In this document: piece by piece, positions 30,567-57,848 of the stretch
Layout: each line of letters opens with the position of its first letter
How positions within the stretch are numbered: position 1 is the stretch's first letter
Assembly (NCBI GenBank): GCA_017433405.1
Contig: JAFRHH010000046.1
Coordinates: 1-57,848, forward strand
Reading direction: 5' to 3'
DNA length: 57,848 bases
DNA from: Clostridia bacterium
GTDB taxonomy: Bacteria > Bacillota > Clostridia > Christensenellales > Aristaeellaceae
Program-made: the position numbers and the translations under genes
The notes under the pieces: model-generated
The model's input: the letters and a program-made list of their open reading frames with translations, nothing else
Told to the model about the DNA's origin: nothing
Databases searched by the model: none

Positions 30567-30857
30567 TTACCCACGGAAGCCGGCCGCAACCGAGTCATCC
30601 GTATTGTCGAGCGCCTTAGCGGAAGCCTTGGCTTCGGCGGCGATGCTTTCGAGCAGCTTGGGATAACCCCGGAGGCTCTCCTCCATGCGGACATACATAT
30701 TGTAGTACGCGTTGGAGCCCATACCGGTCCACTGGGTGGTCATCTCATCGACGATGTCGCCCAGCACGGAAACCTGCTTGTCCAGTCTTTCAGCGACCTG
30801 GGACAGCTCATTGGCCTTTCTCATTACCTGTTCAGGCGTGATCACGACATTAGCCAT
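30567..30857 (-). CDS. WXG100-family secreted protein 1
   Basis: The 96-residue helical hairpin protein has the defining Trp-x-Gly turn (WTG at 43-45) between two amphipathic helices. Such proteins are exported as dimers by the EssC-type ATPase. A YxxxE-like pattern lies in the second helix, but no clear C-terminal YxxxD is seen. GGGAGG precedes the ATG. It is the last of three consecutive WXG100 genes and is followed by a strong hairpin. There is no signal peptide, as expected. Confidence 0.9.
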   Translation of the reverse strand: MANVVITPEQVMRKANELSQVAERLDKQVSVLGDIVDEMTTQWTGMGSNAYYNMYVRMEESLRGYPKLLESIAAEAKASAKALDNTDDSVAAGFRG

Positions 30858-30890
30858 TTTCTTTTTCCTCCCTCTTTTTTTGTCGTTTCA

Positions 30891-31172
30891 TCAGCTGCGG
30901 GAACCGAGATTCTTATCCGCCGCAATGTAAGCATCCGCAGCGCCGATCGCGGCCTGGCCCAGAGACTTGACCGTATCCGGCAGAGACTCCAGCTGCTTAT
31001 CCGTCCTGTTGAAGTCGTTCAGGAAAGCCACCTGAGCCTGGCCCTGCCAGTTCGCGGTGATCTGATGAACCAGATTCCGGGCATCCGCAAGAATGCCGTT
31101 GAACGTGGTGGCCATGCTTTCAATCTGTGATCCACTGCTCCTGAGCGCCTCTCCTACCTTGATGTTTGCCAT
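30891..31172 (-). CDS. WXG100-family secreted protein 2 with YxxxD export motif
   Basis: The 93-residue protein has WQG at 42-44 between two helices and, after the second helix, YIAAD at 82-86. This is the YxxxD signal that type VII systems recognise, so it is the best EsxA/EsxB-like substrate candidate of the three. AAAGGAGA precedes the ATG. It lies 33 bases before WXG100 protein 1 and 74 bases after WXG100 protein 3; the latter gap contains a small AACCG/CGGTT stem. Confidence 0.9.
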   Translation of the reverse strand: MANIKVGEALRSSGSQIESMATTFNGILADARNLVHQITANWQGQAQVAFLNDFNRTDKQLESLPDTVKSLGQAAIGAADAYIAADKNLGSRS

Positions 31173-31246
31173 TTTTAGGGTTCTCCTTTCATTTTTTTAT
31201 ACAAACCGTTTTCCGGTTGGTACCTGAACATAGAAGGGTTTTCTCG

Positions 31247-31537
31247 TCAAACCTTCAGTGATTCCGCCTGGATCGTAAGCTGGTTATACATGGTGGTGAT
31301 CTTTGTCAGAAGCTCGGAGAAGGTATCGATCATATCGCTGTATTTGGCCAGGGAATCCTTCAGCGTTTCCATGTATTCGCTTTTGAAAAGATCCGCTGCT
31401 TTTCCTTTCCATCCGGCATCCAGATCCTTCTTGGCGTCTTCGACGCCCTGCTTCAATTCAAGCAGTCTCTGGCTGCATGAATTCAGGCTGTTGCAGCACC
31501 GGTTCATCGCGTCAATGTCGTATGAAATCTTAGCCAT
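31247..31537 (-). CDS. WXG100-family secreted protein 3
   Basis: The 96-residue protein has WKG at 43-45 between two helices. Two adjacent Cys (14-15) and Cys 21 in the first helix are unusual for this family and could form disulphides after export. No YxxxD motif is visible. Its ATG overlaps the end of the TPR gene by eight bases, with GGGAGG inside that gene, so the two are coupled. It may form a heterodimer with one of the following WXG100 proteins. Confidence 0.88.
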   Translation of the reverse strand: MAKISYDIDAMNRCCNSLNSCSQRLLELKQGVEDAKKDLDAGWKGKAADLFKSEYMETLKDSLAKYSDMIDTFSELLTKITTMYNQLTIQAESLKV

Positions 31538-32876
31538 TGTTGCCTCCCGTTCTCATCGCTTCGAAGCCTTTCTTCAGTTCCTGTTCCAGCGCTTCCGCTT
31601 CCGCGGTTTTTCCTTCCTTCCGAAGAATCTGCGCTCTTAATTCCTTTGTGCCCAGATTCTCGCCGGAAACCTTCTCCACATAGTCGACTTCTTCCATGGC
31701 CTTATCCGTTTCCCCAAGGCCGATATGGCACATGGCCCGATAGACGTGCGTGTCAACCCTGCTGCGCTGCTTTACGGCGATCATGGTCATTTTCCGAATC
31801 GCTTCCCGATAAAGAGCGGCCGCCTCCTCTTTTCTGCCCATCTCATCGACCGCAATCGCTTCCATCACATGTGCGCTGCACAGCTCATCCTCCCCCTTGA
31901 CGGTTCTGGTCGAATCTGCCGCGAGCTGCTGCAGCTCCTTGTATCTGCCGGTTGTACGGTAAATCGTCATCAGCACCTGTCTGGCTTCCACGTCGGGGTT
32001 TTCAGGCGTGTCCCTCGCCACGCAGGCCCGGTAGCATTCAATCGCTTTGTCAATCTGCTCCGTCCTGAGATAAGCGTCCGCTTCAACCTTGTCCAGATGG
32101 GTCAGAACCTCCGGTGGAATCCCCTCGATCGCCCGAATCTCAGCGGACAGCTTCTGTGCTTCTGCTTCCTTCCCCATAATGATGCAAACATCCATCAGGT
32201 GGAGTTTCAGATCAATGTTTTCGGGGAACCTCTGAACCGCTTCCCGCAGCAGGTTTTCCGCCTGCTCATATTTGTACTGCGAGGAAAGCGTTCTTGCGTA
32301 CTCCTTCCACGCGGCCGGAATATCCGGGAAGCGGTCTTTGGCCGCCTTTGCCTCTTCCTCCGCCTGCTCGATCTTTCTCATGACCATCAGGCAGCCAATC
32401 CTCCGGATATAGGGCACATCCCACTCCGGATATTTTTCGATCGTCCGCTGATAGCTCCGCAGGGCCGCGTCATACTTTCCCTGCCGTTCCTGGCAAAAGC
32501 CCATATTGTTCAGCAGGTGCATATCCTCATAGCCGGCCCGGTCCGCCGCGGCATATTCAAGTTCGGCTGTTTTGAATTCATCCAGCAGGAGATGGGTGTT
32601 GCCCATCATATAATGGGCTTCCGGATCATTTTCGTCGATCATCAGCGTCCGCCTGTATTCTTCCAGCGCCCCTGCATAATCAGCCCTCAGAACCTTGAGC
32701 CCGCCTTTTTCCAGATAGATTCTGGAACACATGGGCTCCGTCTTTTCCGCCTTCTCCAACAGTTTTTCGGCCTCTTCAAACTCATCATTCACAATCAGCA
32801 TATGCGCCTTCTCGGTCAGATCGAGCGCCTCAAGCATCTGGGGGGAAACCTGATCCAGATTTTTCCGTTCATCCAT
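31530..32876 (-). CDS. TPR-repeat protein of the type VII locus
   Basis: The 448-residue soluble protein consists almost wholly of tetratricopeptide helices. About ten units are visible, for example LEEYRRTLMIDENDPEAHY-type blocks with the A-x-x-Y-x-x-A-L pattern (DAALRSYQRTIEKYPEW, KAIECYRACVARD). There is no signal peptide or membrane segment. It is coupled to WXG100 gene 3 by an eight-base overlap. A chaperone or adaptor for export substrates is plausible from its place between the large substrate gene and the WXG100 genes, but this is inferred. Similar TPR proteins have many other roles. Confidence 0.85.
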   Translation of the reverse strand: MDERKNLDQVSPQMLEALDLTEKAHMLIVNDEFEEAEKLLEKAEKTEPMCSRIYLEKGGLKVLRADYAGALEEYRRTLMIDENDPEAHYMMGNTHLLLDEFKTAELEYAAADRAGYEDMHLLNNMGFCQERQGKYDAALRSYQRTIEKYPEWDVPYIRRIGCLMVMRKIEQAEEEAKAAKDRFPDIPAAWKEYARTLSSQYKYEQAENLLREAVQRFPENIDLKLHLMDVCIIMGKEAEAQKLSAEIRAIEGIPPEVLTHLDKVEADAYLRTEQIDKAIECYRACVARDTPENPDVEARQVLMTIYRTTGRYKELQQLAADSTRTVKGEDELCSAHVMEAIAVDEMGRKEEAAALYREAIRKMTMIAVKQRSRVDTHVYRAMCHIGLGETDKAMEEVDYVEKVSGENLGTKELRAQILRKEGKTAEAEALEQELKKGFEAMRTGGNNG

Positions 32877-32925
32877 ATATATACCCTTCCCTTTCTGTTG
32901 TCAGCTGCTTTGCCGCCTTTGGATG

Positions 32926-35352
32926 TCAGAAGTGTTTGTCAGCAAATTCAATCGCGTTGGTGATCTTCTTCGTTGTGGAGGACGATTCAACCACATCGTT
33001 GATGATCTCTCCGGGGACGCCGGGAATATCCTTCGTTGTATACAGAACTTTTGCGTCCGGATTGTCCGTGTTCTGTGCGATGGTCGTATTGACCTTTTCC
33101 GCGGTCTTGTTATAGGTGTCAATGACCTTCCGCAGGCTCGGCTGACTGATGGTATCCGTCTTCTCGTTTACAACCACGCGTTTTTCCTGATCTGCGCCAA
33201 GCTTCCATTCCCGCTCCACCGGGCGATAGGGATCCTTGGGTGTCGTCGCCTGGGGGGCTTTCTCCCGGACCGTGGACGTTTTAGGTCCCTTGTCCGTTCT
33301 GGCGAAATCATCGGTTCCGCTCTTTTTTACCGTGTCCTTCGTGACGGTCTGCGTTCCCTTTCCTTTTGATCCGATCTCGCTGGATTTGGATTCCGTGGTT
33401 CTGTTGTAGGTGGTCTTGCCGTCCGCGTTCGTCTTCAGGCTTGAAGTGCTGCTGTCAGACTGGCTGCTCGTCGCGTAGGTTTTTTTGCCGTCTCCCGCGT
33501 TATAAACCGTCCGCTCGCTGGAGGATGTCGTTCTGCTGGCTTCCGTAGCCGTTTTCCCGCCCGTGGTGGCGGTATGCGTCCGATGAGCCACATCCGTTTT
33601 GGTGCTGCTGGCATTCTCGTAGGACGTGCCGTCGCCGTTCTTCACGGTGACCTTCTCAGAATGCGACGTGGTCTTCGTATCGCTTCCCTTTCCGTAACCG
33701 GCATTGACCTTGCTGGTGGTTGTCGAATCGCTGGTTGTGGAAGTCCGCTTGTAGCCATCCGCGCCTTCATGGGTGGAAACCGTTTCTTTTTTCACCGTCG
33801 TCTGTTCCGTTTTATGCTGTCTTTCGCCAAGTTTCGTCGAGGTTGAATCCGTCGTCTTTGTGGTGTCCGTGGACCCGTCCGAATTCCTGGTTACCACTTC
33901 CCGGATGGTCTTGCTTTCCGTCTTGTTTGAGACACTGTTTTCATATTTATAGGACGTCGTTGTCGTTGTTCTGGAGGAGCCGTCCGGATTCGTTTCGATT
34001 CTGGTTGTTCTCTCCCCTACCGGCTTTCCTGTGGTGGCGTCAATCACATTCTGCTTGGTTTCGGTGATCGTCACCGGATTTCCGTTTGCGTCCACGCCGG
34101 TTTTCTGCACAACGATCCTTTCCGATTTGGGATCGGTCACCATGTCATGGCGCTGCTTAAACGCTTCACTCTTGTAGTTGGATGTAATGATGTCAAGGAT
34201 CGGCTTGGCGTTGTTGAACTGATCGATGACCTTTTCCGTAGTCGTTTTATGATGTGTCGCGTCATGATACGAAACCATATTATAGGTCGTATTGGCAACG
34301 GTCAGCACGGTCTTTACGCGGCCGATGACATCCGCGAATTTCCCGCCGAAGAACTTGCCGTCATAATCCGCGCCAAAGAGCCATTTGCTGGGACCGCCTT
34401 TGAAAAAGTCCTTCGTATTCTTCCAGAAGTCTCCCACAAAGCCCTTAAAGGAAAACCCTTTAATCCAGTTATGCGCCTTGGTCAGGAATTTGCTGGCGTC
34501 ATAGATGAAGGTAATCACGGAGCAGACCATATCGACCGTATCGATCAGATTGGCCAGATCATACTGTCCGCAGTCCCGCAGGAATTCGCTGAAGCTCGCT
34601 TCATTCCTCTTTTTCGTTTCCCAGGCTGCGTCGAAGTATCTGTCATTGCAGGCTGCGTTCGCCGCTTCAACCGCATGCCCCAGCTTCACGCAGGCATTCA
34701 ATATGGATAGCCCTATACTGATCGCCGAGGCCGCAATGACGGCGATAGCGCAGATCGTCCCCAGCAGGGTCGCTCCGGTCAGCAGCGCCAGGGTTGCGGG
34801 GAATGCGGCAATGGCGACGACAATGGCCACAATCGCCAGCACCACCGCGAACACACCTTCAATTATTTCTTTTCCGCCGTCATAGTGGAACCAGTCCTTG
34901 AAATGCTCCTTGAAGGAATCCCACCGGTCCTTCCAGTCATGGAACGTCTGACAGATGGAGTTCCAGAGTCCCGCCCAGAATCCCGGCTTTTCCTCCATTT
35001 CCTTGTATTCGAGGCCATGCCTGTCGCAGAAAGCACGCAGATCGGTATTGATGGTGCCGATCACCTTGGCTTCATGATTCTCCGCCTTTTCCTTCAGCTC
35101 GCGGGCCTTGGTGGCAAAGGTGGAAAACGCCGAAGCCATGGTCAAAAGCTGACTGTTATACTGCGTCACATTGCTTCTGGCTGACGTAATGTTGTAGTTG
35201 TGATCCCCCGAATAGCGATCAATCTTATCAACGACCTGCTGCTTCAGCTTGTCCCAATAGGTATTCGCCCGCTTGGCCACGCCTTTTCCCGCGTTTTCGG
35301 CATATTCCGCCAGATCCTCCAGATATCCGGTATTGATCGTAATCGATGACAT
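32926..35352 (-). CDS. Large WXG/LXG-like secretion substrate candidate with Thr/Ser-rich tail
   Basis: The 808-residue protein has no signal peptide. Residues 1-115 are helical and resemble the LXG/WXG-type export domain, with Trp 33 and a helix-turn-helix pattern. Residues of about 165-222 are strongly hydrophobic and Gly/Ala-rich (VLAIVAIVVAIAAF, LLTGATLLG) and could insert in membranes. Residues of about 240-400 form a soluble helical part. Residues of about 400-720 are an extreme Thr/Ser/Lys-rich, beta-hairpin-like array (repeated DGxxxY turns). The last 80 residues are mixed. No nuclease or other known toxin motif is seen. It is probably exported by EssC with the 131-residue partner encoded upstream. 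The function is unknown. Confidence 0.75.
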   Translation of the reverse strand: MSSITINTGYLEDLAEYAENAGKGVAKRANTYWDKLKQQVVDKIDRYSGDHNYNITSARSNVTQYNSQLLTMASAFSTFATKARELKEKAENHEAKVIGTINTDLRAFCDRHGLEYKEMEEKPGFWAGLWNSICQTFHDWKDRWDSFKEHFKDWFHYDGGKEIIEGVFAVVLAIVAIVVAIAAFPATLALLTGATLLGTICAIAVIAASAISIGLSILNACVKLGHAVEAANAACNDRYFDAAWETKKRNEASFSEFLRDCGQYDLANLIDTVDMVCSVITFIYDASKFLTKAHNWIKGFSFKGFVGDFWKNTKDFFKGGPSKWLFGADYDGKFFGGKFADVIGRVKTVLTVANTTYNMVSYHDATHHKTTTEKVIDQFNNAKPILDIITSNYKSEAFKQRHDMVTDPKSERIVVQKTGVDANGNPVTITETKQNVIDATTGKPVGERTTRIETNPDGSSRTTTTTSYKYENSVSNKTESKTIREVVTRNSDGSTDTTKTTDSTSTKLGERQHKTEQTTVKKETVSTHEGADGYKRTSTTSDSTTTSKVNAGYGKGSDTKTTSHSEKVTVKNGDGTSYENASSTKTDVAHRTHTATTGGKTATEASRTTSSSERTVYNAGDGKKTYATSSQSDSSTSSLKTNADGKTTYNRTTESKSSEIGSKGKGTQTVTKDTVKKSGTDDFARTDKGPKTSTVREKAPQATTPKDPYRPVEREWKLGADQEKRVVVNEKTDTISQPSLRKVIDTYNKTAEKVNTTIAQNTDNPDAKVLYTTKDIPGVPGEIINDVVESSSTTKKITNAIEFADKHF

Positions 35353-35397
35353 GTTTCCGCTCCTCCCCGACCTTTATTCTGCTCACGGAAAATCAGA

Positions 35398-35793
35398 TCA
35401 GCCCTGTGCCAGTTCCATCTCCGCCTGTCTTGCTTCTCTTTCCATTCGCTTATAGTAGGTGTAATCGTTGTAGGCTCTGTCTTTGGCGTTCGATATCCTG
35501 GTCATCTCGGAATTAATGGATGAATAAGCGCCGTTCAACTTCGGCGTCGCCCCATAGGACTGCACCTTGTGATTGCCAATCGCGTTTGCGTTTGTGGTGA
35601 ACTTGGAGGATCCGGTCAGCGCGGACTTCATGGAAGAAATGCATTTTTCGATGGACCAGTTAATGTCTTTGACGCATCCGGACTGATCCAGCCCTCCTCG
35701 AATGTCCTTCAGCTCGTTATACTGATTTCCGTACTGCTGATATTTTCTCCATGCTTCATTCTTTTTATTGGCCCAATAGTAAGACGACGCCAT
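35398..35793 (-). CDS. Small helical partner protein of the large T7SS substrate
   Basis: The 131-residue, charged, helical protein lies between two large WXG-type genes. It has two long helices separated by a Gly-rich segment, aromatic-rich ends (YYWANKKNEAWRKYQQY; YNDYTYYKRMEREARQ) and one possible disulphide pair (Cys 40, Cys 51). There is no signal peptide. Size, helicity and position match the small helical partners that escort LXG proteins in type VIIb systems, though the sequence is not recognised. GGGAGGG precedes the ATG. Confidence 0.72.
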   Translation of the reverse strand: MASSYYWANKKNEAWRKYQQYGNQYNELKDIRGGLDQSGCVKDINWSIEKCISSMKSALTGSSKFTTNANAIGNHKVQSYGATPKLNGAYSSINSEMTRISNAKDRAYNDYTYYKRMEREARQAEMELAQG

Positions 35794-35811
35794 CTGCTAA
35801 CCCTCCCTTTT

Positions 35812-37479
35812 TTAAACTGTCGGCAGCGATCCGGCGGCTGATTCGTCGATCACTGCGGCTGTAACTTCCTGTACGGACAGTCCCGCGGTTCTGAAAGCGT
35901 CATAGGAAACCGTGTTCCACGTATAGTTGATCATCCTTTCCCCGACAGCCTGAGCCGCCTGCGTCTGCTGTTCGCCGCTCATATCAAGCGATGATGGCGC
36001 AATCTGCTTCAGCACCCTTTGTCCAAGCTGCTGAGCCAGTTGTCCCTCCGGAATGTTATTCATGGCGCCGTCAATCCAGACGGCGGCCGTCTTATCCGCC
36101 AGGATGCTGCGCTGGACTGAACGGTACTGATCCGAACCGGCATTGTAATCTTCCATCACCGCCTGGGAGACCGACTCCGCCCTGGCGGTGCCTCTTGCCT
36201 CTGTGTCAAGCAGGGCCGGCATCTCCTCAATGACGACGCTCACCGCGTCAGCCATCCGCGAGCGCATGGCCGGACGAAGATACGGGCCGCCGACGGTCTC
36301 CTGCAGAACCGTCTCCACCACCTGCCGCATGGTTGTCTTCGGATTGCTGGAGAGAACCGCCTCCCGAGCCGCCTCCGTCGTTTCTCCCGCGGTGCTTTTT
36401 TCTGCCTTTGCCGTGTTCTGCAGGGCGACATAGGTGGCGAAAAAAAGCACTGTCCAGGGCATGGGGCGGTAGGATCTTCTGCTTGCTTCGAAAACGGGCA
36501 CGTACTCCGCTTCCATGGTCGAATAAAGCTCCGCCTTCAGGGTTCTCCTCACCTCTTCAAACATCGGGTTGTAAGGAGACGGGATTTCAGAGCTCAATTC
36601 ACCTTTTGCCCCGTGGGAATAGGTGTCCAGAACCGCCTGCACCGCGGTTTCCAGGATTGTCCAGAGCTCCGCCCGCATCGTTCGGAGAGCCTGAATCAGG
36701 ACTGCCGCCCGCTCGTCCGGCAGCACGGAAAGGAGTCCTTCCATCATGGCCCTGAGCTGCTCCGCCAGTTCCGCGATTTTCTCCGCGTCGATGGCCGAAC
36801 TCAGCTCCCCCTGCCCCGTGCGCCCGGAGTCCTCAAGCCGGGCGTTGTAGACATCCTCCACCGTGGAGGAAAGCTCGCTCTTTCCGTTGCGGAGTCTGCT
36901 CTCCACAATCGCGTCACGGGCAGCCTCTTGCAGCGCCGGAAGCTCAGGTCTGGGCTGCCTTCTGTAGTCCTCCAGCACGGCCGGCCGCTCCGCTTCCATG
37001 GTCGAATACAGCTCCGCGCCTTCCTGCCGCCTGCGGCCCTCCAGATTAGCCTCTTTTTCCGCCTCCAGCTCCGCCTCCACGGAAGGCCGCTTATCCGCGA
37101 TTTCCTCAGCGTCCTCCGCTTTCGCGCTTTCCGCCTTCTTGGCCGCTTCGTCCATTCCCCGATATAGCTCCTGATCCGTCTGCCTGAAGGCGTTTGAGGT
37201 ATCCTGAAGAAGCGTCTTGACGTCTTTAAAGCCGTCCTCAAAATCCTTCAGATCATCATTCAGCCTTGAAAACTGCAGGACAAAGGCCTCCGCCGCGTCT
37301 CCGTCCCAGACCGAGTCGATGCTCCTTCGGGTGGAGGAAATGTCATCCTTAATATCTGTCAGGGCTTTGTCGATTGTTTCCATGTCCCCGCATACTTTTT
37401 CCAGCTTTGAAAGATCCAGGTTAATCAGAGAATTGGCTTCAAGGGAATCGTTGGTGTTGAAGGTGTTCTTGGTGGCCAC
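35812..37479 (-). CDS. WXG-domain protein with ten 23-residue tandem repeats
   Basis: The 555-residue protein starts with a WXG100-like hairpin (residues 20-110, WDG at 58-60). Residues 130-359 are ten gap-free copies of a 23-residue unit with Glu-Leu at positions 4-5, Glu near 10, Leu near 17 and Arg-Arg at 21-22 (best seen as AELYSTMEAE in copies 2 and 9). The remainder is helical and unassigned. A GTG at 37479 is chosen because AAAGG lies ten bases upstream; the GTG at 37488 is almost on that site. It follows EssC directly and is probably a secreted, rod-forming substrate. The repeat family is not one I recognise. Confidence 0.78.
   Translation of the reverse strand: MATKNTFNTNDSLEANSLINLDLSKLEKVCGDMETIDKALTDIKDDISSTRRSIDSVWDGDAAEAFVLQFSRLNDDLKDFEDGFKDVKTLLQDTSNAFRQTDQELYRGMDEAAKKAESAKAEDAEEIADKRPSVEAELEAEKEANLEGRRRQEGAELYSTMEAERPAVLEDYRRQPRPELPALQEAARDAIVESRLRNGKSELSSTVEDVYNARLEDSGRTGQGELSSAIDAEKIAELAEQLRAMMEGLLSVLPDERAAVLIQALRTMRAELWTILETAVQAVLDTYSHGAKGELSSEIPSPYNPMFEEVRRTLKAELYSTMEAEYVPVFEASRRSYRPMPWTVLFFATYVALQNTAKAEKSTAGETTEAAREAVLSSNPKTTMRQVVETVLQETVGGPYLRPAMRSRMADAVSVVIEEMPALLDTEARGTARAESVSQAVMEDYNAGSDQYRSVQRSILADKTAAVWIDGAMNNIPEGQLAQQLGQRVLKQIAPSSLDMSGEQQTQAAQAVGERMINYTWNTVSYDAFRTAGLSVQEVTAAVIDESAAGSLPTV
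36403..37092 (-). repeat. Ten tandem 69-bp coding repeats (23 residues each)
   Basis: The repeats keep exact 69-base periodicity without insertions, but copies have diverged at DNA level. Copies 2 and 9 are the most alike (GAELYSTMEAE and KAELYSTMEAE). The preserved length with diverged sequence points to structural constraint rather than recent slippage. Confidence 0.7.
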
Positions 37480-37506
37480 TTTTCTCACGCCTTTCTTTTG
37501 TTATCG

Positions 37507-42177: not shown

Positions 42178-42194
42178 CGTTCTGCTCCCCTTTT

Positions 42195-42449
42195 TCAGTG
42201 TCTGGGTTCAAAAAAGATCCGTGTGCCGTTGGCGATGCCCAGCTGTTCCAGCGTCTGCTGACCGGCCAGAAAGGCAATCGGGTTTTCCGCCCTCATGTAA
42301 ACCTGAGCAGGATCCTCCAGATTGATCGGCAGATCATAGGCATGGGTCAGGGCGGCCACCAGCTCCCCCGCGGTCAGAAACAGTGGAATCTGAACATCCA
42401 CCGTCCTGTCACGGCTCCTGTCATGAAATTCGACCGAAACGGTATCCAT
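42195..42449 (-). CDS. EsaB/YukD-type ubiquitin-like protein
   Basis: The 84-residue small protein has a beta-grasp pattern: VSVEFHDRS strand, VDVQIPLFLTAGELVAAL helix region, then LEQLGIANGTRIFFEPR at the end, matching YukD/EsaB, which is an essential cytosolic accessory of type VIIb secretion. The turn L-x-x-L-G-I-x-N-G-T/S is the family hallmark. It sits 17 bases upstream of essC on the same strand, the normal genetic neighbourhood. Length is typical. Confidence 0.88.
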   Translation of the reverse strand: MDTVSVEFHDRSRDRTVDVQIPLFLTAGELVAALTHAYDLPINLEDPAQVYMRAENPIAFLAGQQTLEQLGIANGTRIFFEPRH

Positions 42450-42471
42450 CTGCGAATCCTCCCTGTTTTCC

Positions 42472-43857: not shown

Positions 43858-43863
43858 GAGTCC

Positions 43864-46794: not shown

Positions 46795-46798
46795 GTCC

Positions 46799-49700: not shown

Positions 49701-51418
49701 ATCGTAATCGGTTTAAACTGCCTGGTCACCTTCAGCGTCAGCTCATCGCGGCTGCCGGTCCCTGAACCGATCGCATACTCGCTGTTATAACCCGCGCTGA
49801 TATGGTAGGTTTTTTCCGCTTCTCCTTTAGCAAAGGCTATCTCGGATGTGTCGATCGTCAATAACCAGCCGTCCGCTTCGCAGACCGTTTCCTGGTCAAT
49901 CCCCTCTTCCGCGGAGAAAATCCTCACCTTTTCCCCGGGCTGGCCTGTCCCCTTCAGCGTGATCGTCTCTCCCCATTCCACACTCTGATAGGTTCCCGCC
50001 CAGTCCGCGTATCCCAGTGTCAGCGGCGCAAATTCGCGGCTGACAATCAGATCCACATAATCCGAAGAACGCCTGTGATCCTGGGCTCCATATTCCACGA
50101 ATGTCTCAAACTTGGCAGAACGGTTTTTCTCTACCGGCAGCCCAGAGGTATCAAACTCGATCTGCCAGTTTCCCTGGCTGTCAGCCGATGTTTCTTCTGA
50201 TTCGAATTGCTGTTCTCCCCCGGCCACCCGCACGATGAGCCTGACATTTTCGTTCGGCTGGGAAGTACCCGACAGGCCGTAGCTCCCGCCATAATCAATT
50301 CTGACCTCCCGCTCTGCCTGGCTGAGGGTAATTTCCGCCCAGCTGTCTTCCGGTCGCCCGGAGAAAAAAATCAGGACAATGCCCAGAATCAGCGCGGTCA
50401 AAAGGATCGCAAGAGCTCCCAGCAGGACCCCTCTCCTGCCCTTTCCGTCCTTCTCCCCGATGAGTGGAAGCAGCTTTCTCCGGAATTCTGCAGCGGTCTG
50501 GATACGGCTGGCCGGATCCTCCGCGGTCGCCTCCATCAGAATTTTGTCAAGCGCCGCCGGAATTTCCTGATTATTTGCCGCTGCGCGAACCGAAGGCAGC
50601 GTGCGTCCGTTCAGCTGACGATCCACATTCCCTGTGATCATCTTGAACAGGACGACGCCCATGGCATAGATATCGCTATAGGCGCCCTGTTCCCTGTTTT
50701 CCGCCTGCTCTCTGGGGGTATAGGCCGGCTTACGTGACCGCCAGAGGCTTCCCGGATCCGTCTGCGCCTTGTCCAGTGGCTCCGCGCTGCCGAAATCGAT
50801 CAGCCGGATGGTGTTGTCTGTGCACAGAAATATATTGTTGCAGCTGATGTCCCGATGGATAATGTTTTTTTCATGAAGCTTCTGCAGGGCATCCAGCGCC
50901 TCGACCACATAATGCACCGCGGCGTCCCATTGGAATGGTCCGTAGAGCACGTTGTGCATATAATCGTCGAGCGTATATCCCTCCAGGTATTCCATCAGGA
51001 TGTAGGATGTGCCGTTTTCCTGGAACTGATCGATTCCCTGGACAATGCCGGGAATATGCCCTTCCGATGCCCGGATCATCATCCTGGCTTCATGAAGGAA
51101 GTGCTCCCTCGTTCGTTCTACGTTGGCCGCTTCGCTTTCGGGATAAACCGGCTCGAGCTTGTAGTTTCGGGAGGCTCCCTTTGGAAAATACTCTTTGATG
51201 GTTCGGCGAACATCCATCTTGGTGTCGTAGGCGATATAGGTAATGCCATAGCCCCCGTGACCTAGGGCGCGCCCGATAATGAACCGCCCATCCTCTCCCA
51301 GCCGGGTTCCCGGCTGAAGGTCTTCCTGATGAAGCGGAACATAGGGAATCCGGCTTTTGCAATGAGGGCAGACCGGCACTTCCGTATCAAGCTGTAACAT
51401 ACAGGAATAGCAGAACAA
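46799..51418 (-). CDS. Zinc-ribbon Ser/Thr protein kinase with giant Ig-like ectodomain
   Basis: The 1,539-residue receptor-type kinase starts at a TTG (51418); an in-frame stop lies just upstream, and the TTG keeps Cys 3 and 6, which pair with Cys 17 and 20 in a zinc ribbon. The kinase domain (about 45-320) has glycine loop GHGGYG 53-58, Lys 75, HRD 188-190, Asn 195, DFG 208-210 and YTPREQ and is complete. A membrane helix lies at 330-352. The outside part, about 1,190 residues, is a chain of Ig-like beta modules with recurring LxGTAxxGxxL or GTARSGEHLRI-type strands. It probably senses a surface signal and phosphorylates the FHA proteins. Its ectodomain is unlike the PASTA repeats of PrkC. 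Confidence 0.9.
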   Translation of the reverse strand: MFCYSCMLQLDTEVPVCPHCKSRIPYVPLHQEDLQPGTRLGEDGRFIIGRALGHGGYGITYIAYDTKMDVRRTIKEYFPKGASRNYKLEPVYPESEAANVERTREHFLHEARMMIRASEGHIPGIVQGIDQFQENGTSYILMEYLEGYTLDDYMHNVLYGPFQWDAAVHYVVEALDALQKLHEKNIIHRDISCNNIFLCTDNTIRLIDFGSAEPLDKAQTDPGSLWRSRKPAYTPREQAENREQGAYSDIYAMGVVLFKMITGNVDRQLNGRTLPSVRAAANNQEIPAALDKILMEATAEDPASRIQTAAEFRRKLLPLIGEKDGKGRRGVLLGALAILLTALILGIVLIFFSGRPEDSWAEITLSQAEREVRIDYGGSYGLSGTSQPNENVRLIVRVAGGEQQFESEETSADSQGNWQIEFDTSGLPVEKNRSAKFETFVEYGAQDHRRSSDYVDLIVSREFAPLTLGYADWAGTYQSVEWGETITLKGTGQPGEKVRIFSAEEGIDQETVCEADGWLLTIDTSEIAFAKGEAEKTYHISAGYNSEYAIGSGTGSRDELTLKVTRQFKPITISFEDGSTSLTIREADLGTIIRGTAEPGETLSLMIGTDIYSAEAGEDGQWEYEISAIRGISGYVTNSEVPFDIYARYNAKTALQSEHLTLISNVQVGKTDHTPIIATVSPITVTEGNEIVLEGTADAGATMTLRVFSERDSQSRNLTSGITATADQEDGSWKLSLNTGDIAEERKEGSSTGYTARMELQFGGKEYQSNPVTIFISKPKTYSIPTIRFEEGTERSLALRYTEAVTLTGTARSGEHLRILINDQEQPNDIVVRSDGTWSYRINSLETWKPELEKTTELSLQVRYIAVDVTSETPLRLSVTNPRLTPLTVQMVTSHAVTGGDADRTIGLQGTATISVIGSAGQELEFLRNNVVWKTVRLDETGAASVQLTAEDIPSGSVQAELQFRYIQQSENTSDPVVLRVDRIADAIRITGELTEESASIRGTAEAGAEIVLFINNEPVASVTTKGDGSFLFDHLQLAAGDAVSVSETDPYGNSTTWNDQVKAVTRENIQLNEYENNRTILYGPESAELTLSGTASRNKLLTATIRESGSFEDQVLQIPVGEDGKWETMIALPVSDQKQTDILIQYEDSRGNNLILHTWCDASVEQPDLQPEILYEHSPDELSCRLTESDCTIHWALISESGQIKAEKTLTGVSGTVTMIELPAGRAAGDQFVVTVTDPYGNQSVRSIQVQEQRDEISGTIQSVVDANENEVHDGDSFSGTLQIQAYAAAGYEAAADSASVQLVQNDIIVARVNLSPVTGNDLQWVADKLSGHQADKGWRLKKGTLDISLAEEGPCTLRLVVGSKVVESWSLTCSGEEASGGTVMHVEDSGDGYDMGMDAPSLSYSPKAICLSGWLYNYYDDTTRAIGSGRLTLYEEQACVNAAAAASSSRKEFRKRLPGTTSCGTDARNLDAAAYEKGGWIMQFKQVKVEDGTYWAVLEIDGGDITFGPFELKIQNNNAQVKNQKEFIKSLTWATED

Positions 51419-51479
51419 GACCGGGACACCCCCTTTCTAACCAGATTTCCTCAAAACCCCAATTCTGAACCGGCGGAAC

Positions 51480-52388
51480 TTACTGCGTCGTATTGATGGT
51501 TGCGGTATTTTCATGCAGCAGTGTGAGGGCGGCAAGCGATGCAGGGGTCGCCATCGGCAGATGCAGCCCCAGAACATCCACAACAATCACCGTCGCGTTG
51601 TCCTTCCCGGACATCTCCAGCGCCACCTCAACCATCTGCCTGGCCGCGTCCATGGGGGACGCGTTATTGTAAAGAATATGCTCCATCTGCTCGTGGGGAA
51701 TCAGATCGCTGATCCCGTCCGAACAGAGAAACACCCGATCGTTTCCGCACAGGGAGCAATTCTTATGAAACACGAAATCCTTGCTGATCCGATCCTGAGG
51801 CATACCGAGGTAATGATCGATTTTATTGCTGTCCGGATGCTTTCTCAGCTGCTCCCGGGTCAGCTGACCCGTCAGCATCCTCTGATACAGCTGGGTCTGA
51901 TCCATGGATACCTGATTCAGGATGCCGTTTCGAAGAACATAGACCCGGCTGTCGCCAACGTTGGCTACATGCATCGTGCCGCCCGTCAGATAGGCCAGCG
52001 CCATCGTCGTACCCTCTTTGTTCTTTCCTTCCTTTTGATTGGCATCCTGCTGAATTTTTTCGCTGATATCCCTGGCAAAGCTGTCAATCTGAAGGGAAAT
52101 ATCCTGAATGGAATAGGGCTTATCCAGCTTACCGATTTCCTGTACAGCCAGCCCGGCAGCTCTCTCTCCGCCCTCCAGTCCGCCCATGCCGTCACAGATG
52201 CACAGCAGATGGTGTTCTCTGATTGAGTCAACCCGGAAGGCCGCGCCCTGATTCACCTCTTTGAAGTCCATGAAATCCCCGTTGAAGTAGAAATTATCCT
52301 CATTATTTCCGCGAACGCAGCCAATGTGGCTGATCACCGCGCCCCGCAGCGTGATTTCATCCTTAACGCTCTGTGCAGCCTTTCCCAT
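51480..52388 (-). CDS. PP2C-family Ser/Thr protein phosphatase
   Basis: The 302-residue cytosolic phosphatase has the PP2C metal-site motifs: RGNNEDN (Asp 31), CDGMGG (Asp 66), GDSRVYVLRNG, CSDGISDL and GKDNATVIVV. It would reverse phosphorylation by the kinase encoded just downstream (61-base gap). An N-terminal extension of about 15 residues and a short C-terminal tail are otherwise unremarkable. The ATG follows GGGGAT. It resembles PrpC/PppA in size. Pairing of PP2C with a kinase and FHA proteins next to a secretion motor is the notable point. Confidence 0.93.
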   Translation of the reverse strand: MGKAAQSVKDEITLRGAVISHIGCVRGNNEDNFYFNGDFMDFKEVNQGAAFRVDSIREHHLLCICDGMGGLEGGERAAGLAVQEIGKLDKPYSIQDISLQIDSFARDISEKIQQDANQKEGKNKEGTTMALAYLTGGTMHVANVGDSRVYVLRNGILNQVSMDQTQLYQRMLTGQLTREQLRKHPDSNKIDHYLGMPQDRISKDFVFHKNCSLCGNDRVFLCSDGISDLIPHEQMEHILYNNASPMDAARQMVEVALEMSGKDNATVIVVDVLGLHLPMATPASLAALTLLHENTATINTTQ

Positions 52389-52494
52389 GTTCTTATCCCC
52401 GCTTCAACTCATCTGTTCTCTTCCGGCAATGGCGGATTCACTTCCGCGCCTTCTATTCCACCGAACTGCCTTTTTCTGATTCTGGCGCTGTCTT

Positions 52495-55167
52495 TTACTG
52501 ATCAGGCGACTGACCCGCGCCATCCGGGCTTTCCACGTCTTCCGGTTCTTCCGCTTCTTCCGCGCCTTTCTCGCCGCTTAAGTCCGAAATCGCTTCCTTT
52601 ATGGAAATCAGGCCGTCGTTCTGATACGAATACTTATCCTTTCCGCCAACCATCTCGTGATCGGACAGAAATTGATTGATCGCCCTGCAGAAAGGCTCTG
52701 TAAAGGATCCGTCCAGTTCGATTAAAGGTTCAGCGACAGCATAGGCCGTTGAAAATTCCTGAAGCTTTTCGTTCAGCGTCTCCGCATCACGCATCATGGC
52801 TTTCAGCAGCTCTTCCGGCTTCAGCTCTGCCCGCTCGCCTCCCAGATTTCTGTAAATGATATCGAGCCTGTTGGAAACCCACTTGATATTATGCTTTACG
52901 CTCTGAAAAATGCCGTCGCCGGACAAATCCGGCCTGGGCTGAGGATTTGTCGCCTCTTCCTGAACCGTATGGAGCAGGTATTCCCGCACATTCTCCAGCG
53001 CTGCGCGATCTTCGTCCCCGTCTGCCAGTTGATCCGCTTCTTCCGCCTTTCGCACAGCTTCATTCGCTTCCGTTTCTTCGCCGGGCGCTTCCTCATCGGG
53101 CGCTTCTTCACCTGGTGCTTCCTCCGGCAACTTTGCGTTCAGTTCGCCAAAGAGCATCAGCGTCATCAGCTTGTCCTCTTCCGTCTTCCGAAGAAACGCA
53201 ACAATATCCTGGACGCAGCCGGAATCCGGAACATCTCCGTTTTCCTTCTCCGCCTTTTCGTACTGCTGTTCGTAGTATTTCATCAGCTGCCTGAATTCGG
53301 ACCCCATATCGTCAACGCTTTTGATGGCATTTGTGAATGCAAACTCTTCCTGCTCCTCCGCGTTTTCGGAATCGCTGGAAAATCTTTTGAAAACGCTGAG
53401 GGCCAGTTCAAAATCATTATTCTCCTCAAGTCCCTCCGCCTTCTTGTCATCCTCAGTGTACTGCTTCATATACAGGGCCTGATATACAAGCTTTTTCATG
53501 CGGGTCCAGGCGGGCTCATCCTGTCCGTCCGGGCAGAAGACAATTTTAATTGGCAGGCTTGCTTCGTTTGTGCCATTTTCGAAACGGTAATCCGGATTCA
53601 GAAGCTTAACGGTCACCGCTCCTTCATCAAAATCACGCTCCGCGAGTGTTCCCGTCACGAACCACTCGCACTGGGATGAATCAGCATCCTCCAGAAGAAT
53701 GGTATAATGACGCGAATTCTCAGCGTCCTGACTCTCTGAGGATTCAGTGCTGATCCGAATCATCTTTTCGATGTCCTGATTGTCAAAAAAAGGAATGTTC
53801 CCGGCGAAGGGTTCCTCCCAACGGGGCGACGGGATCACCTTCGGCTCAACAACAAGGATTCCCGGCTTAACATCTTCCGCAAAGACATACCCCGGACTCA
53901 GCTGAATCAGATCGCTTGTGATTTCATATTGCCCGGCGTGAATCCATTCCTCTGCGCTGTCCGCATTGAGCGTGAAGATATCGCTGCTCTGGGCGTTCCC
54001 GACGGATGTCTTGACAGAAATCTTCACCCTTCCGCGCCAGTCCTCCCCGTCATAAACAGCCGTTTTTGCGTCCGGACTGATCATAATTTCCGTTACTTCG
54101 ACCGGCTTTGGCGTTTGCGTAGGTACAGGCGTGGGCGTGGCCGTTGGTGCCGGCGTCGGTTCCACCGTCGGGGACGCGGTCGGTGTTGCCGTAGGCGCAG
54201 CCGTCGGTGTTGCTGTAGGGGTAGCCGTCGGTGTTGCCGTGGGGGTGGCCGTCGGCGTCGCCGTGGGGGTAGCCGTCGGCGTCGCCGTGGGCGTGGCTGT
54301 CGGCGTGGCCGTGGGGGTGACCGTAGGTGTCGCTGTGGGCGTGGCCGTCGTTGTCGCCGTGGGCGTGGCCGTTGGTATTGCCGCGGTCGTCGCCGCAGGT
54401 GATGCAGTCAGCATCGGCGCAGGCGCTTCCGTTAGCACAGTCGCGGACTCTGCGGCATTTTCACCGTCTTCCTTCTGGCCGTTCAGGAAAGGGAATGAGA
54501 ATAAATCCAGTCCGTTCAGAATCTTTGTCGCAGCCCAGGTTCCGGCGATCAGCGCAAGCGCCGCGGCAATGGCCAGAAAAATTCTGCCGACCCTTTTCCC
54601 CCCTGCGGCTTCCGTCCTGACGCCAGCGCCCCGGTATTCCCTGTTTCTCGGCATAGCTGGATAAGGAATCCCCGTGATGGTCATCTTCGGACGTCCTACC
54701 CCGTCTCGGAAGAGGATCGGATCGTCCGCCAGCTGCTCAGCCAGGATGCCAAGATTTCCTTCGCCGGCGTCATAGACCCTGTAAACCGTATTGTTGGCCT
54801 CAAAGGATTTAATCAGCGGGAGACAGCGCTGCTGTCTGCTGCTCAGGAAAAGCTTCTTCGCTTCCTCAACGCTTTCCGGATGCTTTACGACCGATGTTTC
54901 CTCATGCCCGGAAATCCGCCCCATGGTCACATAGGGCAGGAATTCCTCCAGGATCACGCGCCGTTCCGTATCCTCCTCGATCGCGGCGTAGAACTGAGCC
55001 TGCCGGTTGGACGTCAGAACAACTCCGACCAGATACTGATCCAGTCTGAAGCCCAAAGGCAGGGCTCGTTCTGATTCCTGATGTTTGGAAAGATCAAATC
55101 CACAGTTGGGACACTTATCCTTCCATCGGAGAGGTCTACCACATCTCGGACAGTACTGCATGCTCAC
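52495..55167 (-). CDS. Zinc-ribbon pseudokinase with Thr-Pro stalk and ectodomain (EssB-like layout)
   Basis: The 890-residue protein begins with a zinc ribbon (Cys 6, 9, 19, 22) and a partial kinase N-lobe (about 33-150) that aligns with the active kinase of this locus: LVGVVLTSNRQAQFYAA replaces the glycine loop, and ERRVILEEFLP has Leu where that kinase has Lys 75. The C-lobe with HRD and DFG is missing. One membrane helix (196-216) leads to a Thr-Ala-Thr-Pro repeat stalk (about 265-370), a mixed beta region and an acidic helical end. GTG at 55167 is preferred for its GAGGT spacing; ATG at 55161 is possible. Pseudokinase, single helix and ectodomain are the layout of EssB/YukC, which is otherwise absent. 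Confidence 0.8.
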   Translation of the reverse strand: MSMQYCPRCGRPLRWKDKCPNCGFDLSKHQESERALPLGFRLDQYLVGVVLTSNRQAQFYAAIEEDTERRVILEEFLPYVTMGRISGHEETSVVKHPESVEEAKKLFLSSRQQRCLPLIKSFEANNTVYRVYDAGEGNLGILAEQLADDPILFRDGVGRPKMTITGIPYPAMPRNREYRGAGVRTEAAGGKRVGRIFLAIAAALALIAGTWAATKILNGLDLFSFPFLNGQKEDGENAAESATVLTEAPAPMLTASPAATTAAIPTATPTATTTATPTATPTVTPTATPTATPTATPTATPTATPTATPTATPTATPTATPTAAPTATPTASPTVEPTPAPTATPTPVPTQTPKPVEVTEIMISPDAKTAVYDGEDWRGRVKISVKTSVGNAQSSDIFTLNADSAEEWIHAGQYEITSDLIQLSPGYVFAEDVKPGILVVEPKVIPSPRWEEPFAGNIPFFDNQDIEKMIRISTESSESQDAENSRHYTILLEDADSSQCEWFVTGTLAERDFDEGAVTVKLLNPDYRFENGTNEASLPIKIVFCPDGQDEPAWTRMKKLVYQALYMKQYTEDDKKAEGLEENNDFELALSVFKRFSSDSENAEEQEEFAFTNAIKSVDDMGSEFRQLMKYYEQQYEKAEKENGDVPDSGCVQDIVAFLRKTEEDKLMTLMLFGELNAKLPEEAPGEEAPDEEAPGEETEANEAVRKAEEADQLADGDEDRAALENVREYLLHTVQEEATNPQPRPDLSGDGIFQSVKHNIKWVSNRLDIIYRNLGGERAELKPEELLKAMMRDAETLNEKLQEFSTAYAVAEPLIELDGSFTEPFCRAINQFLSDHEMVGGKDKYSYQNDGLISIKEAISDLSGEKGAEEAEEPEDVESPDGAGQSPDQ
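54120..54378. repeat. 12-bp minisatellite encoding (Thr-Ala-Thr-Pro)n
   Basis: A run of 12-base units related to GCCGTGGGCGTG (plus strand) encodes the Thr/Ala/Pro stalk of the pseudokinase protein. Third-base differences between units show that it is not freshly expanded, but the copy number is likely to vary between strains. It is not a CRISPR array. Confidence 0.8.
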
Positions 55168-55219
55168 GGTCTGCACCTCACTGCTGCGTTTCCCTTAATC
55201 TGTCAGTTAAAGAAACTGG

Positions 55220-57848
55220 TCAGTCTTCCGGCATCGGGTATTTCCGCTGTCTGTTGAAGTAGAAATCTCTGATCGCCTTCTGCTCCTCATCCAGCTGGAA
55301 GGAATTATGCAGCATCTCAACCGGAATATTAGCTTCCACATAAGCGCTGACCCAGTATCCGTAGAAGGCCCTTTCCGCTTCCGCAACAGAATCTCCGGCT
55401 TCTCTGAATTCTTCCATGGAGAATCCCTTCGTCTGCGTCCTGAGAATCGTAACCTTCTGGCCGGCCAGATCCACCCCTTCCGCCGGATGGAAGACGGATT
55501 CGATCTTACCGTTCGCCAATCGCAGATCCACTTCGCCGATATGGAAGGCGCAGGAAGCAACCAGCGGAACCGTCACACCGCGCAGCAGCTCTTCCTCCGT
55601 ATAGAGGCCCGCCATCAGCCATTCAGGGAAATCCCGGTTCGTATGGGCTGTTGTATGGGTCGTTCCCATAGCATACGCGTCCAGAGTCAGCTTTCCGCTG
55701 GCCGGGCTCTTCTCCACGGTCATCGTCTTATCGATCTGGTTGCCGGAAAGATCCGTCGCAACGATACGGACAGTGCTTCCCTCCTCCAGCTGCGCCTTTC
55801 TGGCGGCGAATACGGTGAATCCGTCCCGCTTACGGTTGGAAACCTTCTCGCCATCCACATATACCTCCACGCTGGATCCGGGCTCCGCGATGCCGGGAAT
55901 AACCCAGTTGTCCTCTGTGATGACGGGCATGGTAATGATCAGACCGTCCGCTTTGTCATCATAATAGAAGGTGTACTCGGTTGATCCGATCAGGTCGTCA
56001 TACTTGGCCGCGGTCAGAATATCCTTGTCGTCCGGGAAGACATTGGTATCCACAATGAAGGAATATTCCCCCGTACTGGCCTGCGCCCAGGTGCCGGAGG
56101 CCGTTGTCGTATCGGAATTCCTCGTAAGTCCGCGGCCGTCGGCCGTCAGGTCCGTATGAATCAGTTCCCAGCCTGTGCCGGTAATCGTAATGCGAATCTG
56201 CTGAGGCCTTTCCGACATGTCGATCCGCTCCTGGCTGCCGGCAATCCGGATCGGCTCCACCAGGATTTCGATCGGCGCACCTGTGGACTGTCCAATATCA
56301 AAGTTGGTTTGGGTGACATTGCAAACCAGGTCCGTATATTCCATGCTCAGCGCACCGGCTCCGGAATGAATCAGCTGCGGATTGCTGCCGCTGTTCCACT
56401 CCACGGGTCTGGTCACATTAAAGGCAGAATAGTCGCGCACGTCAAAGAATTCTTCCGTGTTAACTTTCACCGTCTCGCTGAACTGAATGTACTCCAGTCG
56501 TCCAGCCTCCGGTACATGGAAGGTAACCTCCATATCCCGGTTCAGGAAGGACGCGATGGAATCTTCAATCTGCGGATTCTGGCTGTCAAAGTGGATCGGG
56601 ATTTCAATAGAGGCAGGATTCCTTCCCTCCGCTCCGCGGTCTTCCAGGTTGGAAGCGTCCGCGTAAGCCAGGACAATCGTCAGATCCGTGTTATGCGCGA
56701 GTGATATGGAGCCTTCGCCGCCTTCCGCCGTCAGCACACCACCGGAGCTGATGTTCAGGTTCATCGTGCCGGTGTACTGAGCCGGCGTCAGATCGTAGTT
56801 GCTGAACCTGGTTCCGGAAATTCTGCCAGTGATCGTCTCATTGCCGACAGTCACATTGATCAATTCTCCAGGTTCTCCGCTGACATCCATTGTTCTGGCG
56901 CTCTGATTCTGATTCGGTCCGAAGCGATAGACATCCGCGTAGCTCACAACTGAATCCGCGCTGAGCACAGTGACGCTTGTTGTCTCATTCTTCAACGGGA
57001 TGACTGGATATCTTTCAATGACGTTCAATCCCAGCGCTACATACTGCGGATCCGCACTTTCGTCAATGACACCGCTCATGCCGTCTGCCTCATTGATACT
57101 CTCTTCAAGATACTTGAAGTTACTCGTATCATTCAGCACAACCCAGATTGGATAGGTTCCCGCATTGATGATCTCTGTTACGCTGGCTCCGGAAGAATTA
57201 TGGAAATCAAGACTGATTTCTTGAGCTTCGCCTGGACCATTGAGTATGAAATCGTCTATTTTAGGAGGGGCTACCAGTTCTTTGATATCTGAAGACACCG
57301 TTTGAGCCTTTGTCTTGGCCGTTATTATAAAATAATGATGCGGTGATTTTACTTCGGCGTCGTTGATTCCGGTTCTCTTCACCCAATCCTCGTGGTCATA
57401 ATCCGTATAGACTTTATGTCCGGCATCTTCATCATTTCCATCTTCTGAAATTGTGACAGACAATATTTCTGCCTTGTGAACAGTCAAGTTTTTTATCAAC
57501 AATTTTTCTGATTTCAGTTGGAAATTCTTTGCACCATGTTCTGTCAGTTTCCATATAACACTATAACTACCAATTCCACTTTCTGTCATAGGATTGGCAT
57601 CAATCATCTCGCCACTTGCCGTCTGATCAAATTCATATTCAGGCTTAGACTCAGACCACCCAGAGTCTACAGTTTTATTATCATTCAGCGTAAGGTCAAT
57701 GGTATCACTCGAATCAGAAGGATCGGTATCTTCTGTTTTGACAGTTATAATATTGATTAATTCTTCCCTTGAAATATCATATGTTTTAATCTGATCCGCC
57801 CAGTCATTCCTATTATAGTACGTATGGTTATAGGTAAGTTCCGCAGAA
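55220..57848 (-). CDS. Large Ig-like surface protein, 5' end outside the window
   Basis: The frame stays open to the right edge, so the start is missing; about 875 residues are visible. They are rich in beta strands, Thr, Asn and Asp with Ig/cadherin-like motifs (GIAEPGSSVEVYVDGEK, IVATDLSGNQIDKT), and resemble the ectodomain modules of the kinase encoded downstream. The last 120 residues change to a mixed alpha/beta domain ending FNRQRKYPMPED with no anchor or sorting motif. A methionine at 57607 is only an internal codon. The gene lies 52 bases upstream of the pseudokinase gene in the same direction, so it probably belongs to the locus as a surface partner or ligand of the kinase. Confidence 0.72.
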   Translation of the reverse strand, partial: SAELTYNHTYYNRNDWADQIKTYDISREELINIITVKTEDTDPSDSSDTIDLTLNDNKTVDSGWSESKPEYEFDQTASGEMIDANPMTESGIGSYSVIWKLTEHGAKNFQLKSEKLLIKNLTVHKAEILSVTISEDGNDEDAGHKVYTDYDHEDWVKRTGINDAEVKSPHHYFIITAKTKAQTVSSDIKELVAPPKIDDFILNGPGEAQEISLDFHNSSGASVTEIINAGTYPIWVVLNDTSNFKYLEESINEADGMSGVIDESADPQYVALGLNVIERYPVIPLKNETTSVTVLSADSVVSYADVYRFGPNQNQSARTMDVSGEPGELINVTVGNETITGRISGTRFSNYDLTPAQYTGTMNLNISSGGVLTAEGGEGSISLAHNTDLTIVLAYADASNLEDRGAEGRNPASIEIPIHFDSQNPQIEDSIASFLNRDMEVTFHVPEAGRLEYIQFSETVKVNTEEFFDVRDYSAFNVTRPVEWNSGSNPQLIHSGAGALSMEYTDLVCNVTQTNFDIGQSTGAPIEILVEPIRIAGSQERIDMSERPQQIRITITGTGWELIHTDLTADGRGLTRNSDTTTASGTWAQASTGEYSFIVDTNVFPDDKDILTAAKYDDLIGSTEYTFYYDDKADGLIITMPVITEDNWVIPGIAEPGSSVEVYVDGEKVSNRKRDGFTVFAARKAQLEEGSTVRIVATDLSGNQIDKTMTVEKSPASGKLTLDAYAMGTTHTTAHTNRDFPEWLMAGLYTEEELLRGVTVPLVASCAFHIGEVDLRLANGKIESVFHPAEGVDLAGQKVTILRTQTKGFSMEEFREAGDSVAEAERAFYGYWVSAYVEANIPVEMLHNSFQLDEEQKAIRDFYFNRQRKYPMPED

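Follow-up and report, generated by a model that had tools for sequence, protein, structure and literature searches.

The window analysed here is a stretch of 57,848 nucleotides, one entire contig (JAFRHH010000046.1; G000:C21 in our set) of the 2.53 Mb, 89% complete genome of a Clostridia bacterium of the family Aristaeellaceae (GCA_017433405.1), a relative of gut Clostridia. It encodes a type VII secretion system (T7SS) in one array of ~27 kb with a transmembrane Ser/Thr kinase, a PP2C phosphatase, a pseudokinase and two FHA proteins. With moderate confidence, we read the locus from its sequence as a T7SS subtype that matches none of the names given by Garrett et al. 2024 (PMC11217815), lies near T7SSe, T7SSf and T7SSj, and carries a portable phosphothreonine module through which we infer secretion to be controlled. 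Kinases, phosphatases and FHA proteins beside a T7SS are known in outline; what appears unusual, and new here, is an exported protein that joins a VWA domain to an FHA domain (VWA-FHA), and a pseudokinase (PSK), reduced to a kinase N-lobe, that is linked to the phosphatase.

Kinase, phosphatase, pseudokinase and FHA proteins beside EssC

Sixteen consecutive genes run on the minus strand from position 57847 down to 29818, no gap exceeding 106 bp and one pair overlapping by 8 bp. They encode, in order, an Ig-repeat protein, PSK, PP2C, the kinase (KIN), VWA-FHA, a J-like FHA protein, YukD and EssC, followed by a WXG-headed protein of 558 residues, P7, S6, a TPR protein, three WXG100 proteins and a zinc peptidase. 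The first-pass annotation had placed EssC, an EsaB-like protein, four WXG-type proteins, the kinase, the phosphatase, the pseudokinase and both FHA proteins in one directional array, and this description holds. The locus qualifies as type VII by its EssC-type multi-ATPase (EssC/TsxC, 37507..42177; TIGR03928, 1023 bits, over the cut-off; PDB match YukB 9qks), its four WXG100 proteins over the Pfam cut-off, and its YukD/EsaB-like protein (TsxB, 42195..42449; PF08817, 1.6e-7, over the cut-off). A kinase D, a phosphatase F and an FHA protein lie beside EssC, the combination that marks T7SSe and T7SSj. The EssB/YukC family, PF10140, had no match in the whole genome (89% complete), in a search that detected the B. 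subtilis positive control; EssA and EsaA had no match by Pfam or NCBIfam among the 17 window proteins to which that search was confined.

The array begins with an Ig-repeat surface protein of 875 residues (55220..57847; Pfam Big_6 at E 5e-4, under the cut-off), whose frame is open at the contig end and probably cut there. KIN (46799..51418) combines a zinc ribbon, a Hanks-type Ser/Thr kinase domain (PF00069, 1.9e-26), a transmembrane segment and outside Ig-like repeats (Big_6); by eye it keeps the catalytic motifs IK, HRD..N and DFG, and its phmmer matches in PDB are the kinases PknB, PpkA and StkP. The PP2C/PPM phosphatase (51480..52388; PF13672, 6.8e-15) carries, also by eye, DGMGG, SDG and DN, which we take to be the PP2C motifs. 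At E <= 0.001 the genome yields two Pkinase, two PP2C_2, two FHA and four WXG100 matches and one EssC match; the second Pkinase and the second PP2C_2 are neighbours on contig C36, and all other such matches fall within the operon.

PSK (52495..55176) was delineated by alignment and by motif reading by eye as a zinc ribbon, a kinase N-lobe only, a transmembrane segment and an extracellular part rich in proline and threonine. Its kinase part aligns to the N-lobe of KIN at 23% identity, lacks the glycine loop, the beta-3 Lys and the alpha-C Glu, has no C-lobe, and ends in a conserved FRD..LPIP tail; PSK shows no match to the YukC model PF10140. Eight PSK loci were found: the window, G059, L075, L080, G026, G050, G034 and G139. 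The last was left out of the adjacency count because its PSK lies at a contig end, while one row, L092 (E 3e-6), was dropped as an ordinary kinase; L076 and L077, which duplicate G059 and G034, were dropped too. PP2C directly follows PSK in six of the seven testable loci (the window, G059, L075, L080, G026 and G050) and is fused to it in the seventh, G034, whose copy is without zinc ribbon or transmembrane segment. The PSK model matches in 58 of 150 family genomes at E <= 1e-5 and in six of the 150 at E <= 2e-50, the remaining matches, which cover part of the model, being taken as ordinary zinc-ribbon kinases; in the class sample of 391 it finds its own genome, and in three others gives matches near E 1e-20 that are kinase-like. 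Because PSK adjoins or is fused to PP2C in all seven testable loci, the simplest reading is that it would act as a docking subunit, carrying PP2C to the kinase.

The first of the two FHA proteins, VWA-FHA (43864..46794), comprises a signal peptide judged by hydropathy, a VWA domain, peptidoglycan-binding repeats, a transmembrane segment, a linker and a cytosolic FHA domain. Across the VWA-FHA set this FHA domain retains the phosphate-contact Arg in 14/14 and the Ser in 14/14; the window copy keeps both, with His in the place of the usual Asn. The J-like protein (42472..43857) has a low-complexity cytosolic N-terminus, two transmembrane segments and a C-terminal FHA domain without the phosphate-contact Arg, and VWA-FHA is the sole FHA protein of the locus that keeps Arg and Ser. 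FHA was the only domain detected in the window J, with DUF6382 not found there, nor in the J proteins of G059 and L075, whose folded-looking N-termini may hold a diverged DUF6382.

Both FHA proteins carry a short threonine motif, D-x-P-T. It occurs in the cytosolic N-terminus of J at residues 17, 47 and 77, an exact 30-residue spacing, and in the cytosolic linker of VWA-FHA at 851 and 866, there as DAPT. The three copies in J residues 1-279 compare with 0.09 expected (3 of 20000 shuffles reach three) and the two in the VWA-FHA linker with 0.02 expected (3 of 20000 shuffles reach two), values that are optimistic because the motif was chosen by eye after the sequences had been read. None was found in 14 other window proteins totalling 8193 residues, a set that counts P0011 and leaves out the zinc peptidase. 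Among 15 linkers between transmembrane segment and FHA domain from VWA-FHA loci, a set that excludes the linkers with tandem repeats in G126 and G096, Thr-centred windows are non-random (z 7.3), with Ser-centred windows at z 0.8, and other threonine repeats, GTVRI/GTERL, occur in related linkers of G003, G033 and G061. Kinases and FHA domains prefer hydrophobic residues at +1 and +3, and the threonine repeats fit these preferences.

Threonine repeats were also seen at other EssC loci. Those of G126 (L044/L045) and G096 (L055/L056) encode FHA proteins with tandem EETVQPY / DETVNPY before the FHA domain, and Lachnospiraceae proteins near EssC (L086, L104, L125, L091, L092) carry (D/E)TTVLG between transmembrane segment and FHA domain, their outer part being trypsin-like by eye.

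EssC itself was considered as a phospho-reader and rejected. Across the set, EssC FHA domains are mostly degenerate, with the phosphate-contact Arg in 9/58 and the Ser in 16/58, and neither Pfam nor a local FHA model gave the N-terminal region of the window EssC an FHA score; direct phosphothreonine reading by this EssC therefore looks unlikely.

Association with EssC and readings of the cassette

EssC is patchy in its distribution. At E <= 1e-90 it occurs in 23 of 150 genomes of the family sample, and in two of the seven same-genus genomes among them, the present one included; its frequency is 4/347 in the order sample and 29/391 in the class sample, again with the own genome counted. FHA matches outside EssC at E <= 2e-8 are found in 20 of the 23 EssC genomes and in 16 of the 127 others (Fisher p ~2e-12), a contrast that shrinks to 20/23 against 48/127 (p 2e-5) when matches up to E 0.001 are admitted, and one tallied by hand over genomes that are not independent. 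At the 54 EssC loci whose two flanks each reach 8 kb or more, a separate FHA gene is present in 51, a kinase in 32 and PP2C in 18, and all three together in just 15. The co-occurrence count that the first-pass annotation called for thus bears out a non-random association of signalling genes with EssC and does not make the full trio universal.

Relatives were drawn from a scan of named genomes, of which the best 80 loci were kept, with gene maps made by homology-guided calling, and were placed in a tree of 100 EssC rows, built by a quick method with Shimodaira-Hasegawa-like approximate likelihood ratio (SH-aLRT) supports, to which the T7SSb-j reference EssC of PMC11217815 did not belong. The window groups with L078, L075, G059 and G034 in a clade of five (SH-aLRT support 100). 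PSK with PP2C is present in four of the five, and the fifth, L078, shows just 1.7 kb upstream. G059 and L075 share the order PSK, PP2C, VWA-FHA, J, YukD, EssC; the G059 kinase is divergent and lies at the upstream edge, and in L075 no zinc-ribbon kinase was seen within 10 kb, two other kinases following the WXG100 genes. Elsewhere, in L106 (Thermoclostridium caenicola), L118 (Acetatifactor muris) and L130, VWA-FHA and a kinase lie downstream of EssC, and VWA-FHA occurs in 13 of the 100 rows at three separate tree positions. A ParA/MinD-like ATPase recognised by Pfam, here regarded as the T7SSf protein V, is present in 50 of the 100 rows and common in neighbouring EssC clades. VWA-FHA and V occur together in none of 102 loci, many of which have short flanks; on the 54 well-flanked loci counted above the exclusion gives Fisher p 4e-4, uncorrected for kinship.

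The signalling genes also occur apart from secretion genes. At the E <= 1e-90 threshold EssC is not found in three PSK genomes, G026, G050 and G139 (97, 80 and 82% complete). In G026, of the same genus, Ig, PSK, PP2C and kinase genes stand in the window's order amid further kinases and FHA proteins; its Ig protein, of 1741 residues and just upstream of PSK, matches residues 310-869 of the window Ig protein over its own 1200-1734 (27%, E 1e-24), and local YukD and WXG100 models had no match in the 40 kb covered at this locus. G050 has PSK-PP2C-VWA/FHA. The first-pass annotation had proposed a switch built into the T7SS operon, and of this the gene association stands and the dedication to secretion is weakened. 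The G026 region (G026:C29:158000-197999; L189/L190) is itself a signalling cluster that exceeds 25 kb and encodes three zinc-ribbon kinases, three PP2C, several FHA proteins with transmembrane segments and a kinase-FHA fusion; TMPAE motifs recur in it.

In the reading we favour, an outside signal from the cell wall or from contact would be read by the Ig, VWA and peptidoglycan-binding parts and would activate the kinase, which would phosphorylate J and VWA-FHA at the threonines of their D-x-P-T repeats. The phosphorylated repeats would then be bound by the FHA domain of VWA-FHA, which would gather J, and thereby EssC, into an active complex that PP2C would reset, PSK serving as the docking subunit that brings the phosphatase to the kinase. 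Phosphorylation would in this way control WXG100 export. Tentatively, one might go further and see a separable phosphothreonine cassette, in which an N-lobe mimic carries PP2C to the kinase, VWA-FHA with its threonine motif is a GarA-like reader, and the T7SS, as a new subtype gated by an outside signal, is one of several outputs.

Several observations weigh against such a switch. Besides the incomplete spread of the full trio and the optimistic shuffle values, the FHA domain of the window VWA-FHA lacks the usual Asn, and a further D-x-P-T lies at residue 737, in the extracellular part of the same protein. In relatives the motif is loosely kept (DAET in L078; DEAT, DQPT, DPVT and DLPT in G059), and it was not seen in L075. 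Pro-centred windows are non-random in the 15 linkers as well (z 6.2), and when all 42 linkers are taken, the shuffles are departed from by 11 of the 12 residues tested, with Ser at z 6.6; since most residues depart there, the threonine signal is specific in the smaller set only. Finally, having been found without EssC, the cassette may belong to a different process and have no more than the operon in common with secretion.

That last point opens onto a doubtful alternative: the signalling genes would form a separate unit for sensing the cell envelope, and the T7SS would work without them, as T7SSb does. The G026 and G050 arrangements and the mostly degenerate FHA domains of EssC speak for it, but the genome's only FHA proteins directly precede YukD and EssC, separated by 6 to 22 bp, and FHA genes track EssC across the family sample at E <= 2e-8. 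We think it unlikely that the locus simply falls within one of the subtypes T7SSe, f or j and has gained further genes. With T7SSe and T7SSj it does share A, B, C, D, F and an FHA protein resembling J (PMC11217815), and the putative V, the mark of T7SSf, is widespread in neighbouring clades; yet DUF6382 was not found in J, a local V model had no match in the window, VWA-FHA and PSK are extra, and VWA-FHA and V were never seen in one locus (with the short flanks noted above). It is very unlikely, in our judgement, that PSK replaces EssB as a scaffold on the EssC N-terminus, independent of phosphorylation, even though PSK has the topology of EssB/YukC, EssB was not found genome-wide, and the YukC pseudokinase domain binds the FHA region of YukB apparently without phosphorylation (PMC9600267): PSK is an N-lobe only, it occurs in three genomes without an EssC match, and the EssC-linked copy of G034 has no transmembrane segment and is fused to PP2C.

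Candidate substrates and flanking DNA

Downstream of EssC lie the genes for a protein of 558 residues with a WXG100 N-terminus (35812..37488; PF06013, 9e-10), for P7 (35398..35793; 131 residues, no Pfam match, Lap-like by position only), S6 (32926..35352) and a TPR protein (31530..32876; Pfam TPR), a candidate chaperone, and for three WXG100 proteins (31247..31537, Pfam 6e-8, over the cut-off; 30891..31172, Pfam 7e-12; 30567..30857, Pfam 2e-12), the last two also over the TIGR03930 cut-off. S6 has by eye a helical WXG/LXG-like N-terminus and matches no Pfam family over the cut-off; a long Ser/Thr-rich tail follows its hydrophobic hairpin. Homologues of S6 occur in 12 distinct loci, all 12 of which also encode homologues of P7 and of the TPR protein. 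Resemblance to the window copy lies mostly in the first ~300 residues, the pattern being a conserved helical head, a hydrophobic pair and a mostly divergent tail, and the L106 and L118 copies are alike over nearly their full length (58%). S6 and the WXG100 proteins are candidate substrates.

The final gene of the tight array encodes a zinc metallopeptidase (29818..30501; PF04298), with gaps of 65 bp before and 557 bp after it. Past the longer gap, on the same strand, lies a repeat protein of 714 residues with a signal-like N-terminus (27116-29260), ~30% identical over 708 residues (E 3e-75) to the product of a 1357-residue gene in the G026 signalling cluster; this resemblance to a gene inside an EssC-less cluster means that it may belong to the cassette. 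Promoter and terminator scans showed no clear departure from shuffles. GC content is 0.57-0.62 across positions 1-24000 and 0.51-0.57 across 24000-56000, changing ~6 kb ahead of the T7SS array, and this possibly reflects acquired DNA. Anti-phage defence was set aside as a reading, the PADLOC matches being to kinase models and FtsK-like ATPase regions.

Comparison with known systems

The first-pass annotation had called a kinase-phosphatase-FHA switch in a T7SS operon a new type of control, which is overstated because Garrett et al. 2024 named T7SSc-j, noted FHA proteins, kinases and PPM phosphatases among them, drew the analogy to the type VI secretion system (T6SS) themselves, and raised such a switch as possible in T7SS subtypes (PMC11217815). 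In its abstract, results and discussion that paper does not describe an exported VWA-FHA protein with a transmembrane segment, a PP2C-linked N-lobe pseudokinase, D-x-P-T repeats in the linkers of both FHA proteins, or an EssC-less Ig-pseudokinase-PP2C-kinase block in the same genus, and our search of the open-access literature found this arrangement undescribed. The locus narrows the printed idea to testable pieces: one competent-looking FHA domain, defined candidate threonine sites and a phosphatase paired with a pseudokinase of its own. If true, the link between PSK and PP2C may be an unusual way to aim a PP2C phosphatase.

With T7SSe and T7SSj the window shares WXG100 proteins, a YukD-like B, an EssC-like C, a transmembrane kinase D, a PPM phosphatase F and an FHA protein J, as well as an Ig-like surface protein, a possible counterpart of the I protein. 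The J proteins of PMC11217815 carry DUF6382, whereas the window J has two transmembrane segments and no detected DUF6382, and the window adds the VWA/peptidoglycan-binding/transmembrane/FHA protein and the PP2C-linked pseudokinase. T7SSf also has a PPM phosphatase and a J with two transmembrane segments and a C-terminal FHA domain, but it has a TadZ-like AAA protein V and no kinase, the reverse of the window. T7SSc resembles the window in having a vWA protein, a kinase and a PPM phosphatase with EssC; however, its TscE is predicted to be cytoplasmic without a transmembrane segment and its EssC has no FHA domains, while the window VWA domain is exported and joined to FHA through the membrane.

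As a cytosolic pseudokinase with a transmembrane segment and an extracellular part, PSK resembles EssB/YukC of T7SSb (PMC9600267). It differs in consisting of an N-lobe only, in its linkage to PP2C and in occurring also without EssC. In mycobacteria, the FHA partner of MviN is FhaA, and the two, a pseudokinase plus an FHA protein downstream of a Hanks kinase, offer a further likeness. The process that the MviN pseudokinase (PMC12599244) serves is cell-wall synthesis, with no secretion machine and no PP2C fusion.

A functional parallel is the threonine phosphorylation pathway of T6SS, in which a membrane kinase, a PP2C phosphatase and an FHA adaptor (PpkA-PppA-Fha) are likewise encoded with the secretion machine (PMC3953482). 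The machine differs, the resemblance is one of logic only, and because the window kinase matches PknB and PpkA alike, it shows no special kinship to the T6SS kinase; the window module likely works in the manner of that pathway.

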